This document shows, piece by piece, positions 1,857-48,772 of a stretch of 64,000 nt of DNA. The notes beneath the pieces were generated by a model, which worked only from the letters and a program-made list of their open reading frames with translations, had not been told where the DNA came from and made no database searches. This DNA is from Paracyclopina nana (lineage: Eukaryota > Arthropoda > Copepoda > Cyclopoida > Cyclopettidae). The first letter of the stretch is position 1. Every line of letters starts with the position of its first letter. The stretch spans positions 1,200,501 through 1,264,500 of the forward strand of contig JAGUCH010000007.1 of the NCBI GenBank assembly GCA_019096065.1, in the 5' to 3' direction. The translations under genes and the position numbers were made by a program.

Positions 1857-4336
1857 GGGAATCGCCGTTTTTTACATGCTGCAACAACAGCAGCAGACAC
1901 AAGCGAACTTCTTTTAGAGCGCACTCAACTTCTTCTAGCAGAATGCTACACACCCCGACCCCCTAAACGTAGTGGACAACTCGATGCTAGAGCACTCTGG
2001 GGCGACCAGAGAACGGTCGAGTTAGAGTCGCTTCATCGCCAGAGAACGGTTAAATTCTTTGGTACATTTTGGAGCGAGAGCTTGAAGAGTCCAGGAGGTT
2101 TTCCTCCATATTCAATCCACTTCGATCATCAGCTTTTACACTTATCGTTCAGTATTAACGCATTGGTAGTTAACTTGAAATTAAGCGAGGATTTAGCGAC
2201 TGAACATATTAATGTCGTGTAACGTCTTTGTTCTAATTAAGAGCGTTTCAGCACTAAGAACTGAACGCAACATTGAAAGATGAATGGAGAGTCGCATTGA
2301 ACTGTGATTTGTTTTGAATGAGTCGTTTGGCCAAAAAAATATCAGAGTGGGTTAATTTGCGGTTAAAAAACTCTCTCGTCGACAAACTAGCCAGACATGT
2401 TTTATGATCATTCAGCCCGAAAAATGCGCCTTCTTTTATAGCGACATGACTCGACAGCAGACAAGGTCACCTATCCAAATTGTTGTTTACCCCTTAATTA
2501 AACTGACCCTATTTTGGCGGGAAATTCGAACAAGCGGAATGTGCATTGTAAACACATGACAACCGTGAAAGAACAGCGGCGGCTTTGTTTTCCGACAAAT
2601 TTTGGAATATTTCTCTTTTCCCAATTTTTCCCATTTTTTTGCTGCTCCCCCTTTTCACTAGCAGCAATAACAGTCATTAAGGCCCTTATGGCACTCTAAT
2701 TAATTACAGCCTTCAAGTCTAATAACGAGTCTTCTTCACCAGACATATTTGCAATTTTTGCCAGGCGAAAATTACGTTCTTTTTTCAACCACAAATTGAT
2801 CTCGTTAAAAAGCTCGACTATTGCCAATTTCACATAAGGCTGAATCAATTAAGTTGAGATTTGACCTCTGAACTCTTAATAAGAAAAAGTGTAAACAACC
2901 CGAAGAAAAGAGTTGTAAACAAAATTCCTTGGCGTAGAAATTAGAAACTTTGTTTACCTTTATGCATCCCCAGTCCATGTTGGTCGGAAGACATTTTTGC
3001 CTGCAAAACAAGAGAGAAAAAACTGGTTAAAGACAAGTGGCAAAGTTAATGAGGGTTCAGATGCAAATGACTTCACAGGTCACTTTTCATCTTGAATGAG
3101 ATTTTATGAGAGCCCATTATTTACTCTTTTTTATGAATTATTTTCAAATTAGGCTCAATGTCAAAAAAGGGGTCTTTTTGGGGCCAGGGGCAATTCACGA
3201 TTTTGCCGGCCATTAAAATAATGCGGTTTTTTTCTTTTTTATACAATATCTATAAATCATGCTCTTTTAAAATTATTGGGGCTTCTGATCTTGTTAGAAT
3301 GGTGCTAAATTAGTAGGGCTTTTTTTCTGTGACTCTGGGTCAGTTGAAACGACTTTTCCCACATGAAGAACAACTCGTTTTTGTCAACTTTTGGGTGGTG
3401 GTGAAGACCATGATGTCAAAATACTTGGGACAGGCCAGAATGACAACAATTTTGACTTTGATGGCCAACTGTCCAAAAAGAATCTTCTCCAGGCTTGATC
3501 TGGATTTGAAGCTCAAAAAGCTTATGTTTAACAGTCAATAATGGAAGTTTTCCCAACTTTGCCCCAATTAAGATTGTCTTCAATCCAGATTCAATTTCAC
3601 CCCATTTTTTTATGTTTTTTGGGGTGATTTTAACAGACTCTCAATTGAGACTATATATTGTATACAGTTTTGGGGTCTCCAGGGATGTTTTGATATCCCC
3701 TCACTTTTTGCTTTGCTACAAGGAATGTGTGCTTTTAGTAGCTTTACTTCCCAAGATGTTTTCAACCGATTTTCTGCTCTATGCGACCATAAAAATTATC
3801 ATGAACTTTGGGGGTGTCCTGGTACTTTTGGTCAACAACAAGCCAAGGGGTAAAGCATCATTTGTCACGGCTCAAAAAATTATGATGACCTTGAAAAAAT
3901 TTCGGTTATAGCATCTGGACACTAAACTGTTCTATCCTCCCAGTCATTTTGGATTCTGGAGGGAAAAAGGGCCAAAAAAAAGCATATCTATACTTCTTAT
4001 ATGTGAGGCAAATAATGAATGGATTCACTTTTTTCAAAAAAAAATCTCAACTAACTAAAGTATGCAACTTGATATTAAAAAAATCAGACTTTTAATGAGA
4101 TTTGTTTTCATACAATTTTGTTTTCAGTCTCCCAAACTTGAATTGAAATTGAATTTTGAAACATCACTTTTCAATGATACACAAATTGTCCCACATTTTT
4201 AAAAATATGTTTTTAATTCAAACTCAGCACTAAAATCAGGCATCAACATTGTAAAGTCCAAATTCGATTATTTTCATTTTTCAATAATTTTTTGACTAAA
4301 TCCAAAAATAGCGGGACACTCTGTGGTATTTAGTAC
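1857..4336. other. Non-coding stretch, probable intron
   Basis: AT-rich, with no supported gene. It contains the inverted partner (about 2230-2345) of the repeat at 1237-1362. Short open frames on both strands lack splice borders and coding-like composition. Confidence 0.45.
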
Positions 4337-4576
4337 CTCATGCCAAGCATAGGCAGGCGTGGCAGCAACGGCCCCGCCCTCAGTAGTAGTATTGGTATTC
4401 ATGTGCTCAGCCATGACTGACATCCAATGAGCTAAGCCTGCTTGCGAGCCGGTCACAGCCATGGAAGTGGCAACAGCTGACTCGACAGCTGACGGCGAGG
4501 CAGCAGCTGACGATTTTCCCCCCTGTTCCCCACCAGCTTCATCATCTCCGACCGGACTCCACACTGCCAAAGCCTT
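4337..4576 (-). CDS. Putative coding exon, Ala/Ser-rich, unrecognised gene
   Basis: A 240-nt exon of exactly 80 codons runs from a good acceptor (TTCTTTTCAG) to a GTACTA donor, phase 0 at both ends. The peptide begins KALAVWSPVGDDE, continues through a Ser/Ala/Val low-complexity region, and ends with AHWMSVMAEHMN and AYAWHE. The local rise in GC, the open frame and the exact phase fit with the exon at 5423-5525 upstream and 1423-1806 downstream all argue for coding. The composition would suit a disordered region of a transcriptional regulator, but no domain is visible, so this is a guess. Confidence 0.5.
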
Positions 4577-5422
4577 CTGAAAAGAAGAAAGGCTTTTTTC
4601 AAAGAAGGCCAGGCCCCATTTTTTTTTAAATAGCAATTTTTTGAAGAGCAGCTCATGGCTATTTATGGCTAATTTCTCTTCACACGAAAAGGTTGAGGAA
4701 TCATTAGAATTTGCTATGTGGAAAAACCATTAGCAGTAGGAAGTTGAAAGTAGATCACTGTGGGGCAAGCCTGGCTTGAAACCCCACCAAAAATTTTAAG
4801 CATTGCGGATTTTGGAGAGTGGCTCTTTTGAGGCGTTTTTGGCTGCGAGTTTCCCCAGTGTGGAAAGGGATTTTTTGCTGGCAAAACCTCGCTGCAATGT
4901 GAGACTCGATGAAAAATGAGTGGTCTCACTAATGATAGTTGTCATATTGCAACATTAAAACTTATACAGTACAATAATATAGTTTTACCACGTTGTTTTC
5001 AAATATGCTTTTTTTCAGCAGGCCAAAAAACACTGACCTGAATATTTACTAATGCTCCAAATACTTTTTATGACACTTCCTGCATATTGATATGTGTTTA
5101 TTTAGGGGCAAAAAAGGCTGGAACTTTCACTATAATGATAATAGGCAAATTGAATACAACTTCACTTTTTAAATATTAATTAACGACATTTCCATATTCA
5201 CATCAAATCAGAATTTCAAAAATTCCAGTGATTTCCTCCCAATTTTAGTATATAGCACAAAAATTAAAAAATGGCGTTTTTCTGGTGATTTTCCTCCAGA
5301 TTCAAAGGTGTTTAAAAAAGAAGAAATTATTACGGGAGAATAATGGGGGTAAACATTGGTTTAAACGCCTTTGAATCAAGATGTTGGCACGAGGGGCGCA
5401 AAAAAGTTTAAATTGCACTTAC
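4577..5422. other. Probable intron
   Basis: Lies between two minus-strand exons whose phases match. The acceptor side has a pyrimidine-rich tract. Nothing else is recognised. Confidence 0.4.
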
Positions 5423-5525
5423 CACCCCATTTGTATTCTCAGCTGAGAGCGGAGCAAAAAAGTTATCAACATTAAACACTGCTGCTGTTGCCCTTTTTTG
5501 CCCAGTGTCATCTAAAGCACTGGAA
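5423..5525 (-). CDS. Putative short coding exon, unrecognised gene
   Basis: A 103-nt exon lies between a TTCTTTCAG acceptor and a strong GTAAGTG donor. One base completes a codon, then 34 codons read SSALDDTGQKRATAA, then VFNVDNFFAPLSAEN, ending NGV in phase 0. The next exon to the left (4337-4576) starts in phase 0, so they join cleanly. The exon needs an upstream partner ending in phase 2, which I did not find: the exon at 15093-15443 ends in phase 0. At least one linking exon is therefore missing, or the two belong to different transcripts. Confidence 0.45.
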
Positions 5526-8500
5526 CTGAAAGAACTGCAACAGCCCAAATTCCTGCCTACTTTTTTTCCGGTGGGGAAACACCTTGAAAAACTACTCGCG
5601 TAAATTACCCGTTTTTTTGCTGCAGTTCTTTTTTGCTTTTCGCAATTCGCACTTCTCTTGCAATTTCGGTGGTTTAGCCTAGTTTTCTACTAGATTTATT
5701 AACCCAATTTCTTAAACTGCATCATACAAACTAATAGCTTAAGAATTAAAAAAGTAAACAAAAACACTTTTATGAATTGTTTTTATCAAGAAAAAACCTG
5801 TGATTTTTCATTTTTAAAAATAGGTTCATGTGACATAAAAATTGGAGGTTTTTTTTTAAAAAAGCAAGTTTTTCTGCTAAAAAATTGTCTATCATATTGA
5901 ATATATTGTTCTTTAAGGCGGAATTTTTAAGGCATTGAGTTTATTTTGAGGACATGAAAATGGACCTGGTTGGGAAAAAGGTGGCTTTTGATTGGTCGAG
6001 ATCCGCCACCGTGCTACTTTTTTGCGAGAGTGCCGACATTTTTCAAGCCAAAGGGTTGAAGGCAGCGCGTGCAGCTGCTTGTTGCACACAGTGGAAAAAA
6101 ACGCGCCGCATCTCACCATTCAATTCAAAATGCAAACCTCATCATGTCGCCTTTTTTGCCCGCAAACTTTTTTCCACTCCAAATCCACATTGCAATATCT
6201 TTTGACGAGTTCGTGATATGAAATGCAAAAAATCCCTAATTGGCCTTTTAGCAGCTCCTTTTTTCTCTCTCGCTTCGCTTTTTGGGAGAGAAAAACGAGT
6301 TTTGCAGCTTTTGAAAGCTGCCTCAAAATCCGGGAATCAATGTTGTGCTCACTTGAAAATGATGATACAAAAAAAACACGTGCTCATTTCGCGCAAATCT
6401 TGAAATGTCCATCAACAAAAATAAGAGCTATGACTCAATTCCACAGTTTTTATAGCTAATTTCTATTAATTTTTTATGCGTATTAAAAACACTAATTGGC
6501 GTTCTTTGGTATCTTTAGGCCCTGTTCAACTAGTCAGTTAACAGCAAAATTACGGCCTCATAATTTAAAAAAAATTATTTTTTTTTAAATTATTTTTAGT
6601 GTTTATCCTTACTTTACAAAACAATTCTGAGGCCTTCCAATTTTCGGCTTTTTTTGGTAGTGTATTGCGTAATAATTTTCGCATAAAAATCGTCAAATGA
6701 AGCAGGTTATTTTGCTCTGAAAAGGGTAATTTAGGAATTATTTCAGCTTTAAACGCCGAAAAATAATGCGAGTTTCACTGGCAAAATAATCCACTGTGCC
6801 AATCAAACGTGAACGCATCTTTAAAGTTTCAAGCAATGAAAGCTTGTGATTAAGTTTTTTCATGATATTCATCGAGTTATGTTTTCAGTGCTGGCAAAAT
6901 TAAAGAGAAGTTGAAGAAGGGCGCGTGACCAATCAGCTGAAAAATGATGGATCATCAATGTTGCTGTTGCATAGCAATACAGGGTGACCCATCGATAATT
7001 ACGCTTTTGGCTGCCTTTGATTTTGTGGAGAGCCTGTATGGCAACTCACGCAGCTGCTGCCTCTGGGTTCAAGGCCCACTTCCATATCATCCGTCTCTGT
7101 CGCGAAGTGTGTCTGGCGAGGCCCACCTCATCTATCTCACCCAAAAAAAATTATCTCACTCGAACGCCTATTAACCGACTAAAAATAATTAACTACCTAC
7201 CTCATTAATAGCCATAGATAAACCCGAGTTGCTTGACTTTTTTCAGGTCTATACTTTATACTTGAATGCTATGGGTGTTTATTTAAGGAAAATGTCGATT
7301 TTTTCATTTTTGGAAAAGCAGCAGAAATGAAGGTTTTTCTTTAAATTATGACATATTTTACATTTGCCCGCATAAAACCCTGCAAACATAGAATAATAAT
7401 AATATGATAATCATTATAATTAATAATAAAACATTTAGCAGAGATGTCAGTTTTGGGATGTGTTTTTGTCCGCGTAATTTTTTGAAAAGCTATAAAAATT
7501 GGTCTGGGTTTTTTTCCGGGCAATTTCTTGAAAAGAGATAACGGCTTAATTGACAAAAGCAACGCCAGAAAGCCAAAAATCTTACATTAAAATGAGTGCT
7601 TAAAGAAGTCTTTTTTTAATTGTTTTTTTGGTAGCAGATGAGGAGGGCCATCCATATAGTATACCTGTAATAATCGGGAGAAGAGTGGAATGGCCTATGA
7701 CGAAGAAGTCGATGATTCCACTCGCGCGCTCTTTTTTAACAAAAGCAGGCCTAATTCTAGGTGATCAGGCCTATACTTTAAAATGTGCCCCTTTTTTTCC
7801 CGCTGCTGCTGTTGCAGCAAATAACGCAACAACTTTTACAACAATGAAGGCAGACAACAAAAACAACAGCAATATTGTAGTAAATAAGAGCGCGGAAAAA
7901 ACCCAGCTTGATTTATTGATGGCAGGGGGAAAATGGCGCTTTTTGCACTTAGGCCCGGAATCTTTTTGCACACTCTCCACAAAACCTCTGTGCGAATTTT
8001 TTGCGCACTCCCGCTCCTTTCCGCCAAATTGCACGGCTTTCTTCCCGTCGAAAAAGCCGCAAGTTTTCATTAAACCAATTTGAATTTTCGCGCGCTTTTC
8101 AAACACTAATTAAGTATTGTCAGCTGATGCGCGAAATTCCTTTATAACAATTTCAAGCGAATTTATACTAAAATATCAAAGTCCCGTTCATTTAATATGG
8201 AAAATCAAAAGTTTGTCAAATTAGCATTATTACAGTAAGCATGCAATTTTTGAATATTATTTAAAAACTACTTTAATATTGGCCTTAAATTTGTCGACAC
8301 CCTCCTTATGTTACATAAAGTATCAAGAAGTAAGACAAGCAGCATTTTTTATCACTCGGAACTTTTTTAATTGGTTTCCTTTAAGAAAAACAAGATTTGT
8401 TTACTTTTGTGAAGTTTGGCAGATTTTCTACTCTTCAAGTTTGTCGCATCATTTTTTGGCCCAAAATGGGCTAATCGCATTTTTGGCACTTGCAGCAGAG

Positions 8501-44774: not shown

Positions 44775-45395
44775 ATGAAGGTGAGATAGCAATTACGATG
44801 CTTGAAAGTAAACAACGATATTTTTTTGACGGAGTAGCATGTTTGCTCCAAAACAATGAGCAATGAGAGTCGATTGCTCTCTTCCATATTTGGAGTCAGC
44901 TCTCAGTGCTGAAATCACAGCTGCAAGCCTAACACCTCTTTTCGACATTATTTGTTTCAGGTCTTTATCATCTCCGCCCTCGTCGCCGTGGCTGTGGCCG
45001 CCCCCAACAACCCCGCCCCTTATGCCCCTGCCCCTTACGGAGCTGAGCCCGCATACCCCGATGCTGCCCCCGTGTACAACTACGCCTATGCTGTTGCTGA
45101 TGACTACTCTGGTGCCAACTTCGGTGCCAACGAGGGTAGGGATGGGTATGCCACCAATGGTGAATACCACGTGGCTCTTCCTGATGGCAGGATCCAAACT
45201 GTGACCTATTCAGTGGCTGATGCTTATGGCGGTTATGTTGCTGATGTCAAATACTCCGGAGAACCCACCTATGCCCCAGCACCTGCACCTTACAAGCCCG
45301 CTCCCGCACCCTACGCACCTGCACCTGCCCCCTACCGTCCCGCACCTGCCCCCTATGCCCCCGCTCCCTACCGCCCCGCTCCCTATCATGCTTAA
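44775..45395 (+). CDS. RR-type cuticle protein, secreted, Ala/Pro/Tyr-rich tail
   Basis: Two exons (44775-44780 and 44961-45395) give 146 residues. The first exon encodes only Met-Lys, the usual arrangement for arthropod cuticular protein genes, where the first intron interrupts the signal peptide. The signal peptide is MKVFIISALVAVAVAAP. A Rebers-Riddiford-like chitin-binding core follows: NYAYAVADDYSGANFGANEG, then GYATNGEYHVALPDGR and TVTYSVADAYGGYVADVKYS, equivalent to the GxYxVxxPDGxxxxVxYxAD core. The tail is a repeat of APAPY/KPAPAPY units. It would be laid down in the exoskeleton, where the RR domain binds chitin. Its focused TATA promoter and AATAAA signal lie close by. It is transcribed convergently with the globin gene, whose stop is only about 140 bp away. 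Confidence 0.93.
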
Positions 45396-45535: not shown

Positions 45536-48500
45536 TCAGGACATGTCAAACTGATGTCTGCTCAAGTCTGCCACAGATTTGTAGCCACTTCTCATGAATC
45601 CAGCAATGTGTCTGAACAACAGCAACCAGGCCATTTCAACCTTGAATAATTAATGTGCATGTATTTATGAAGGCATGAATGCTTGGCTGTGCACTAATCT
45701 ACCTGGTAGCTCCATCTGCCTTGAACAAGTAGTAGAGGTCTGACAGTGTTGCAAAAAACGGGTCCCATCAATTCGAGCAGCCTTTGTTGGACTTGGACAT
45801 CACAGTGGATGGCACCAAGGTTGCGAAGGAACTGGACATGAGTGCTCAGGTCTGGCAGGCAGCGCACCACATCATCAACAACTGCCACCAAGTGGTCAAA
45901 GTGCTCATTCATGTTGTCCTGGACACTTGGGGACTCTGGCCTGTTGTGCTTTGGGTAATAGTACCTATCAAGAAGACTCAACATTAAATATCAGAGTTGA
46001 CATAAATGGTGACTTAAAACCTTAGGTTGGCACTCAGTCGAAAAAGCTTGTTGAAAGTTGGCAAGCCTAGCTCATGCATTTGCTCCACAATCACAGCCCA
46101 GGTGTCTTTGAGAATGAGGGTATGCGTCAAAGTTGGGAAAATGCCTCCAGGGGTGGAGAGGGCACCCGTAGGGTTCGGGTACCCCCGCTTCATCAGGGTA
46201 GCCACCATGTCGAACAAGTGGTTCCACGACTTTTCGAGCTCGATCGTCCAAAGGCCTGCCCTGAAGACCAAAGGCCTGATGGTATGGCAAATCAGAGGGC
46301 CAAGCATCTCGAGATGCTCTTGAGTGATGCCCTGGAATTAGAAATCTTGTTGATGAGAGATGTTTTGCTTGCAAGCGTGATTTCAAGTTCAAGAGCTGAT
46401 GACAAAGTTGGGAGAAAGCAATCGGGTCTCATTGATGATTGCTCTTGAGCAAATATGTAGCACCGTCAAAAAAATTAAGTTGTTGCAGTACTTGTCTGTA
46501 GTGATGTCGACCCAGGTCCTGGAGGAGTGTCCGGATCTTCTCCGGATTGCCAGTGTTCTCCACGATGTCCTCGACAATGGCCAGGACCCTGGATGAGTGC
46601 ATTTTGAGTGCAGATGAGACCAGAACGCCGTCGATTTCGATTGCATTGAATTTGTCAAAATGGGACAGAATTTGAGGGTGTCTGTCAAAGAAGGACTGGA
46701 AGCTTTGGCAGCCAATGAGGACGAGATGGCGGTCAAAGGAGGTCATCGGAGGTAGAAGGGAGGACGAGGCTGTGGAGCTATCAGAGCCAGCCTCTTCCTC
46801 TTCCTGGTCGCCATAGTCTGAGCCTGAGTCTCCGCCACATGAGGCATCTTTTTTGGCAGGGGCTGTGAGTAAGCGTAGAGCTCCCAGAATGGCACAAAAA
46901 AGCGAGGCCCAAGAGGCCTCAATTTCACTAGTCCACACTTTTGCACCACCACTCCCCTGCAATTGTAAGATATTTAATTACATCTTTAAAATTCCATGCA
47001 ATGTAATTATGTACCTGTGCTTTTTTCAGGAGAGTGTCTCTGATTGCTGTGCAGAGGATGGAGGCCAATTCATCAGGGTCAAATCTGCCCACGTCAATTG
47101 GCAATGGAGAGTGCTTTTTGGCCAGCCTCCGCAAATACTTGACCATGGAGCGGTTGTCAGTGATGTAGCGCACGATCCGCTTCAAAATGGAGGTCAAGTA
47201 CATGATATGCTGCTGCAAATCCTCGTTGATGCGAAGCTCACTGTGCTTTTTGCCACGATACTGACGGAATGTACGTTTCAAATTGGGCTGGCTCTCAAAC
47301 AGGACCAAAAACATCTGCACGCCGACCTGAAAAGGCAAGTTCTCGCGGGTTTGAACCAGGGCGTAAACAAAGGGGGGACCCCTCGCGAACCACCGTGCCA
47401 CCGAATGTAAACAAACCTGCACGAGCATCGATTCGACGGTGGTCCAGCTGGATTTGATGTTGGCGATGTCATTGGAGGCCAATTGGATGACGATTGGCAT
47501 CTCGTCAGCGACACTGACCTCAGTCTCGGTCTCGAGGTCGCCGCAGCTTTTCCTGCGCCTTCGACGGCGAGGTTTCTTGCCACTGCTAAAGTCCTCTAGG
47601 TAAGTCTTGAACGCCACGTGCGCCGAGGAGGACGGATTCAAGTAGATCAATTCCTCGCTTAACGCAGACGTCCGCACATACCTGAAAAAAGCCACTTTAG
47701 CATGATTTTACACTTGGCAGCCTTGAAACCAGGAAAAGCAATTTTATAAAAAAATATCTCCATCTACAATCGGGAACAATCAAACAGATCAAGTAGCTAT
47801 TTAGGTCTTGAAAATGTTCATTTCAAAAAAATCTGGTAGCCCGGGAACTGGTTATGAAAATCCATTGGCTATTGTGAAAAGGTCTGGTAGCCCTGGGACT
47901 GGTAATGAAAATGCATTGACTTCTGAAAATACTTGGCAGTTAAAAAAAGTCATGAATATTATTTGTTGATTGGGAAAATTCTCTAGAACGTAGCTCCATT
48001 GAAAACAAAGCTCTTTGACAATTTTTTTTAAGTCTGGTTCTAAAAATCAAAATTTTAATAGAAAGAGTCTGGTAGCCCTGGAACTAGTTATGGAAATCAT
48101 TTTTTTAAAGAAAAAAGTCTGGTAGCCCTGTGGCCAGTTATGAAAATAAGTTTTTTTTAAGAAAAAAGTCTGGTAGCCCTGGGACTGGTAATAAAAGGGG
48201 ATACTGAAAATACTTGACAAAGTCATGAAAATTATATTTTTTGAACAAAGAAAATTGTTTGGTAGCCTTATGGCTGGTTAAGAAAAACCAAAAGCTTTTT
48301 TCTGAAAAAAAGTCTGATAACTCTGCAATGTTTTTTCAGAAAATCGTGTTCATAAAGATAAATATTTCAAGAGAAAAAGTCCTGAAGCCCTGGGACTGGT
48401 CATGAAAATCAGTTTTTTAAGGAAAAAGTCTGGAAGCCCTGGGACTGGTTATGAAAGTCAGTTTTTTTAAAGAAAAAGTCTGGAAGCCCTGGGACTGGTC

Positions 48501-48772
48501 ATGAAAATCATTTTATAAAAGAAAAAGTCTGGAAGCCCTGGGACTGGTTATGAAAATCAGTGTTTTTAAAAGAAAAAAGTCTGGTAGCCCTGGGACTGGT
48601 TATGTTTCTAATCAGACAAAGGAAGGAAAAAAAGAGCTTGAGAGGAGGAGAGCTGCTTGTTTATTGATGGGTTAGAAAAGTTTTCGAAATCCTACCTTGC
48701 CACTCTGGAGACATCAGAGACAACCGAGGACGTCCTCGAGAGGAGGCTGGCGCTCGAGGACGTCTGTCCCAT
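45536..48772 (-). CDS. Three-domain globin with N-myristoylation-type N-terminus
   Basis: Seven exons join in phase to 598 residues: 48696-48772, 47417-47681, 47015-47326, 46492-46956, 46021-46331, 45703-45964 and 45536-45640. It starts MGQTSSS (Gly2, Ser6), the N-myristoylation pattern, then has an Arg6 basic run (64-69). Three globin folds follow. Domain 1 (about 95-250) has Trp105, CD1 Phe134, distal His154 and proximal His186. Domain 2 (about 288-425) has Phe318, His338 and His370, but its A helix is mostly missing. Domain 3 (about 440-590) has Trp451, distal His498 and proximal His530, with Tyr480 near the CD1 position. The linker between domains 1 and 2 is acidic and Ser-rich (YGDQEEEEAGSDSS). 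All three domains keep both haem-contact histidines. There is no secretion signal, so it differs from the extracellular multidomain haemoglobins of branchiopods. It probably acts at a membrane in redox, O2 or NO chemistry (inference). Confidence 0.9.
47830..48605. repeat. ~55-bp minisatellite in globin intron 1
   Basis: About a dozen copies of a unit built on GTCTGGTAGCCCTGGGACTG followed by GTTATGAAAATCAG and a T/A tract. The right-hand copies (48360-48605) are best preserved. It fills most of the 1-kb first intron of the globin gene. Confidence 0.9.

Follow-up and report, generated by a model that had tools for sequence, protein, structure and literature searches.

The multi-domain haemoglobins of crustaceans are described as extracellular throughout, and those of Daphnia, Moina and Artemia are respiratory proteins that carry several globin domains per chain, nine of them in Artemia (PMC4503718). 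Among the 245 globins (272 domains, 84 species) of an arthropod survey, 112 have a putative myristoylation motif, and none was found to combine several domains of the GbX or GbXL class; the authors suggest that being a single chain matters for how GbX and GbXL function, and acylated globins have been proposed as a possible ancestral state of arthropod, perhaps of animal, globins (Prothmann et al., 2020; PMC7457136). Here we describe a gene of Paracyclopina nana that combines an N-acylation-type start with three globin domains. The gene lies on the minus strand of a 64,000-nt stretch of contig JAGUCH010000007.1 (G000:C7:1200501-1264500; this whole stretch is referred to as the window, and positions are those of the window unless another locus is named), in an intron-bearing genome of 92 Mb and 10 contigs. 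A marker search of these contigs located 18S but gave no COX1 match at E 0.001.

Both the N-myristoylated globin of Carcinus maenas and GLB-26 of Caenorhabditis elegans are single-domain proteins, unlike the product of the window gene. The Carcinus globin shares with it a crustacean origin and an N-myristoylation site that is not accompanied by a palmitoylation site (cited in PMC7457136 and PMC3176823), while GLB-26, an N-myristoylated redox globin of a nematode for which a part in redox signalling has been proposed, shares the N-acyl start (PMC3520999). Zebrafish GbX is hexacoordinate and binds membranes through acylation, and a respiratory role for it has been deemed unlikely (PMC3176823); a myristoyl group in combination with a basic motif has also been suggested as a membrane anchor (PMC7771090). 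GbX and GbXL resemble the window gene in having a long N-terminal extension, an N-acylation-type start and histidines at both E7 and F8, but the window gene differs from them in its three domains and in its introns, none of which is found at B12.2, G7.0 or E10.2. The make-up of the H helix we take to be similar as well.

Several globin domains joined in one chain are not confined to the secreted haemoglobins. The cryptomonad Guillardia theta has two proteins with three globin domains per chain (six domains in all), but both begin with a cytochrome b5-like part, and a different globin of 275 residues, without the F8 histidine, bears the myristoylation site predicted in this species (PMC4101818). 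The 14-domain and 2-domain globins of sea urchins likewise hold covalently joined domains in one chain, but are of the Ngb type by their authors' phylogeny and synteny; the available portions of these sources make no acylation claim, and the term 'myristoyl' is absent from the first as available (PMC4527676, PMC3485006). Barbatia haemoglobin is an intracellular multi-domain globin with two domains, for which the available portion of the source mentions no acylation (PMC4503718). No equivalent of a three-domain N-acyl globin was among the matches listed in full-text literature searches, the scope of which left subscription papers mostly outside. The view of the initial annotation that the protein has no described equivalent is thus upheld for the combination of an N-acyl start with several domains, but not for multi-domain globins that lack a described secretion signal, in light of the Barbatia, sea urchin and Guillardia theta proteins. 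What appears to be new is the occurrence of this combination in an arthropod-like genome.

The gene extends from an ATG at 48772 to a TGA ending at 45536 and comprises seven exons, which on manual splicing give a coding sequence of 1797 nt (598 residues) without an internal stop. All six introns (1014, 90, 58, 160, 56 and 62 nt, in order) are of the GT-AG type, with phases 2, 0, 0, 0, 2 and 0; the GC content is 0.526, 0.407 and 0.641 at the first, second and third codon positions of the coding sequence, and 0.24-0.39 in five of the introns, with intron 2 at 0.556. Exon 1 (48696..48772, minus strand, as are all features of this gene) encodes MGQTSSSASLLSRTSSVVSDVSRVA(R), with Gly2 in an N-myristoylation-type start, and ends in a phase 2 donor. 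Exon 2 (47417..47681) holds the N-terminal extension with its basic run and the first globin domain (D1) from the A helix to about B4, and exon 3 (47015..47326) holds helices B-G of D1, including the E7 and F8 histidines. Exon 4 (46492..46956) reads in a single open frame through the H helix of D1, an acidic, Ser-rich linker and helices B-F of the second domain (D2), as does exon 5 (46021..46331) through helices G-H of D2, a short linker and helices A-C of the third domain (D3). Exon 6 (45703..45964) covers D3 from the CD region to the start of the H helix, with its E7 and F8 histidines, and exon 7 (45536..45640) the D3 H helix, the C-terminal tail and the TGA.

On this gene model, a single reading frame of one gene runs through three globin domains, which are thus covalently linked. 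Because the D1-D2 and D2-D3 junctions sit inside the single open exons 4 and 5, the fusion is independent of the choice of splice sites, and base shuffles of exon 4 were stop-free in only 5 of 3000 cases. Furthermore, a spliced profile aligner, supplied with a profile built from three hand-spliced paralogues (L008, L010 and L011) and none of the window's own domains, returned introns 2-6 identical to those read by hand. Weak points of the sequence-based gene model are the intron 4 and intron 5 donors, which score -1.7 and -2.1 on a scoring matrix made for this analysis and would fit an artificial joining of adjacent single-domain genes by hand splicing; such an artefact is nevertheless highly improbable given the position of the junctions, the independent recovery of the splice sites, 598 codons without a stop and the presence of a like junction exon in a paralogue, L013 (see below). 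The coordinates, the seven exons and the one in-phase frame with three globin domains, all of which had been put forward in the initial annotation, are borne out by this analysis.

Two features of the introns were noted in addition. Intron 1 (1014 nt, 47682..48695) carries arrays of 49-51 bp repeats, which span 48053-48604 on the minus strand. Intron 2 (90 nt, 47327..47416; GC 0.556) is stop-free and divisible by 3 and is possibly retained, which would add 30 residues within the B helix of D1.

The full protein matches the Pfam Globin family (PF00042; curated cut-off 22 bits) in three stretches with E 8.5e-33, and each domain also exceeds the cut-off when scanned singly. D1 (residues about 96-248, 46867..47473, split by introns 2 and 3) scores 38.4 bits (2e-9), D2 (residues about 289-424, 46179..46746, split by intron 4) 58.5 bits (1.1e-15) and D3 (residues about 440-585, 45578..46133, split by introns 5 and 6) 28.0 bits (3.3e-6). 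D1 and D2 are connected by a linker (residues about 249-288, 46747..46866) that is markedly acidic, with 9 Asp/Glu versus 2 Lys in the counted stretch 249-290. In a PDB search with the protein, the best 60 of 258 matches are all globins by name (top E 6e-9). Features of Androglobin are not apparent: Globin is the only family in the Pfam scan up to E 1, so that a calpain-like part was not found at this threshold, and the helix order is normal rather than permuted.

The haem pockets were compared in a domain alignment of 15 rows, made up of 13 domains of this genome, mouse Ngb and a Cygb (the partial globin locus L017 and the flavohaemoglobin were excluded). The F8 histidine is present in 15 of 15 rows, and D1, D2 and D3 all keep both the E7 and the F8 histidine together with a Phe at B10; the distal and proximal histidines had been correctly assigned to each domain beforehand, without mention of the unusual pocket of D3. 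Position CD1, at which Phe is highly conserved among globins with some known exceptions (PMC7457136), is Phe in D1 and D2 but Tyr in D3. Moreover, position A12 of D2 is Met instead of Trp, and the A helix of this domain, judged by eye, is short and contains prolines. With Tyr at CD1 and a Pfam score below those of D1 and D2, D3 might be a scaffold or sensor module in a protein that binds haem through D1 and D2 only, its additional domains having a structural or regulatory role; we consider this unlikely, as D3 retains the E7 and F8 histidines and Phe B10.

The N-terminal extension ahead of D1 amounts to about 95 residues. Exon 2 is open, but its first Met is residue 87, and a stop in the same frame is found shortly before its acceptor; the extension therefore requires a first exon. 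Three ATG-to-donor candidates of the right phase and with a donor score of at least 0 are found in the 3 kb upstream; the one encoding MGQTSSSASLLSRTSSVVSDVSRVA, the MGQTSSS start, has a donor of 4.6, while the other two share a poor donor of 0.8. Such a candidate is rarely met by chance: when random positions in 13 sequences of this genome were examined for a Met-Gly (MG) candidate of at least 15 residues with a donor of equal quality within 1.1 kb, none was found at 1040 positions in a first run and one at 1560 positions in a second (outermost ATG only), compared with 102 of 1560 random positions for candidates that begin with any ATG and have a donor of that quality. The start, which by eye fits the PROSITE pattern PS00008 for N-terminal acylation, is thus of the myristoylation type described in the initial annotation, and the basic run named there is likewise present (KKPRRRRRRK, residues 61-70, 47549..47578, positions from the translation).

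A signal-peptide-like hydrophobic stretch was not found in residues 1-90, where the maximum Kyte-Doolittle value over 19 residues is 0.48 (hydropathy only, with no dedicated predictor), in agreement with the earlier reading of the protein as cytosolic. This contrasts with the Daphnia, Moina and Artemia haemoglobins (PMC4503718). The precedent of the known crustacean multi-domain haemoglobins, all of them extracellular, would favour an extracellular oxygen carrier of their kind, but the hydropathy of the N-terminus, the MG start and the deep divergence of D1, D2 and D3, which share 21-26% identity pairwise, render this reading very unlikely.

We consider it fairly probable that the product of the three-domain gene is an intracellular, membrane-tethered multi-haem redox globin, myristoylated at Gly2 and assisted by the basic run. 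In this proposal, a myristoylated Gly2 and KKPRRRRRRK together would keep the protein on the cytosolic side of a membrane. All three domains would bind haem, probably with a distal histidine that is able to coordinate the iron, in the manner of GbX and GLB-26, and the resulting set of three haems, with the acidic and flexible linker between two of them, would form a local redox unit. This unit may engage in peroxide, superoxide or nitric oxide chemistry, or in redox signalling, rather than serve as a circulating oxygen carrier. We infer the myristoylation, the membrane binding, the haem loading and the chemistry of the three-domain globin, and hence its place at the cytosolic face, by analogy with acylated single-domain globins, namely zebrafish GbX and GLB-26 (PMC3176823, PMC3520999), and with the suggested anchoring by a myristoyl group and a basic motif (PMC7771090).

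Several properties of the N-terminus weigh against a membrane location. There is no Cys adjoining Gly2, Gly2 and the basic run are 60 residues apart, the run itself could be a signal for the nucleus, and an ATG in another frame starts 11 nt before that of MGQ. In the available account of zebrafish GbX, the C3S mutant is located solely in the nucleus (PMC3176823), and where this Cys is missing, membrane attachment would call for a second signal, for which the basic run is a candidate. The initial designation of the protein as 'lipid-anchored-type' is consequently retained for the N-acyl start motif, whereas anchoring itself is predicted at the level of the motif and would depend on that second signal. 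The main rival to a membrane-tethered globin is a protein that is cytosolic or nuclear, either because translation starts at Met87 or because Gly2 is unmodified, with KKPRRRRRRK acting as a nuclear import signal; its standing as main rival derives from the fit of the run to a nuclear signal and from the missing Cys. To this we would assign a minor but real probability, since the extension before Met87 is open across exon 2 and in phase with the only good first exon, and since three paralogues (L008, L015 and L016) have like extensions with MG as their first Met.

The tethered-globin reading gains context from the other globin genes of the genome. Searches by Pfam family, with the full protein, with the L008 globin and with D2 identified at least nine further globin loci (L008 and L010-L017, the last being partial) as well as a flavohaemoglobin (L009), these globin counts being lower bounds; weak matches were seen at C2:10147289 (E 1.0) and C8:5903364 (E 6.0). 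MG is the first Met in L008 (MGNHAAK), L015 (MGISSSSSSSC) and L016 (MGNTESQ), where the extension is in one open frame with the A helix, and L010 has an MGNEASR exon that reads up to LTPEQ. Altogether, an MG start was found in 6 of 10 globin genes including that of the window (in 5 as the first Met), with no first exon assigned for L011, L012, L014 and L017. Basic runs are also present in L008, L013 and L016.

The three-domain gene is no singleton: L013 is, by its reading frames, a multi-domain globin gene too (two domains; G000:C1:15682500-15692400, from about 9332 down to 4125 of that interval, minus strand). Its junction exon (from 6861 down) contains the H helix of domain a (ESWLKFFSVIMELMSRGYP) and the A-B region of domain b (LSTEEKTFISTTLKSIRKEVDLVGVVTFAQLF) in one open frame, and both domain a (44.6 bits) and the F-H part of domain b (34.8 bits) are above the Pfam Globin cut-off. 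The N-terminal exon (MGNAQGSSSGGSSGGKKK...KRRKSKR...LTPDEIKNIQ) is of the MGNAQGSSS type. However, this MG is the second Met in frame, the first being six codons upstream, and the AG that separates them does not belong to the acceptors scoring >3; MG is therefore a candidate start in L013. L013 further shows basic runs and a long SLLKSPLS-type tandem repeat in its intervening region.

L012 (G000:C9:5390500-5400400, 3500-7300 of that interval, plus strand) is probably also a two-domain globin gene, although the case is weaker than for L013. Its first domain (29.4 bits) ends in MKRGYATCG, after which the same frame continues into a stretch that by eye is A-helix-like. The second domain, at 20.1 bits, is below the Pfam cut-off of 22, and the E7 column holds Thr in the first domain and Gly in the second, in a region where the alignment is weak and the A-C helices are not securely found; no first exon was located, and both domains were recovered in part.

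The relationships among the domains were examined in a tree of the same 15 rows, in which the L013b row is a composite lacking the E helix. The single well-supported fork unites L014 and L015. In approximately unbiased (AU) tests, p-AU was 0.152 for D1-D3 as one clade, 0.154 for all seven domains of the multi-domain genes as one clade and 0.162 for D3 with L013b. Internal duplication, for which the initial annotation had looked to a domain-level phylogeny, is thus neither supported nor rejected by the tree or by these tests. Nor do the introns support it, because their positions differ among the domains (helix numbers assigned by hand here and below): D1 has phase 0 introns near B5 and in GH, D2 a phase 0 intron directly after F8, and D3 a phase 2 intron in C and a phase 0 intron at the start of H. 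The first of the D1 introns (intron 2) is at a profile column and phase common to introns of L008 and L016. Two residue patterns, both noticed after the fact, are suggestive: a Cys in one column of the G helix is found in 6 of 7 domains of the multi-domain genes (not in L013a) versus none of 6 from single-domain genes and neither reference row, and Tyr at CD1 is common to D3 and L012a only (L013b is gapped there).

Membership of the window gene in GbX or GbXL is not claimed. These classes are single-domain in form, and the protein has three Pfam Globin domains. The GbX/GbXL introns at B12.2 and G7.0 (in GbX also at E10.2) were not encountered in the three-domain gene, no structure named GbX or GbXL was among the best 60 rows of each of three PDB searches, and the tree gives no clade placement. 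The intron positions are themselves uninformative on GbX class, because the modelled single-domain paralogues depart from them too. In none of the modelled genes was an ancestral globin intron (B12.2 or G7.0) seen; phase 0 introns near B5, in late E and in GH recur instead.

Tentatively, then, and with somewhat more doubt than conviction, we suggest that this lineage may have evolved lipid-anchored multi-haem membrane globins of two and three domains from an ancient acylated stock of the GbX/GbXL type, of which they would be the first multi-domain members. If correct, this would contradict the idea that the single-chain monomer form of this stock is functionally fixed, and the gain could be electron transfer from haem to haem or clustered redox sensing at the membrane. 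A genome in which a three-domain N-acyl-type gene is accompanied by another one or two multi-domain genes would provide natural test objects for membrane-tethered haem clusters, and the same genes bear on the origin of multi-domain globins that have no role in blood oxygen transport.

The flavohaemoglobin-like gene L009 (G000:C1:3196000-3205900, about 4500-6016 of that interval, plus strand) is probably split by introns, because its globin and reductase pieces lie in different frames. Its joined reductase pieces match flavohaemoprotein structures (E 4e-34); in Pfam, one globin piece (7.7e-10) and the NAD piece (9.8e-11) are recovered, the FAD piece (0.036) is below the cut-off and the first piece has no match. 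Acquisition of this gene by horizontal transfer is possible. Within the window, the globin gene is convergent with a gene on the plus strand (44776-45395) that ends about 140 bp from the globin stop codon and that presumably encodes an RR-type cuticle protein.

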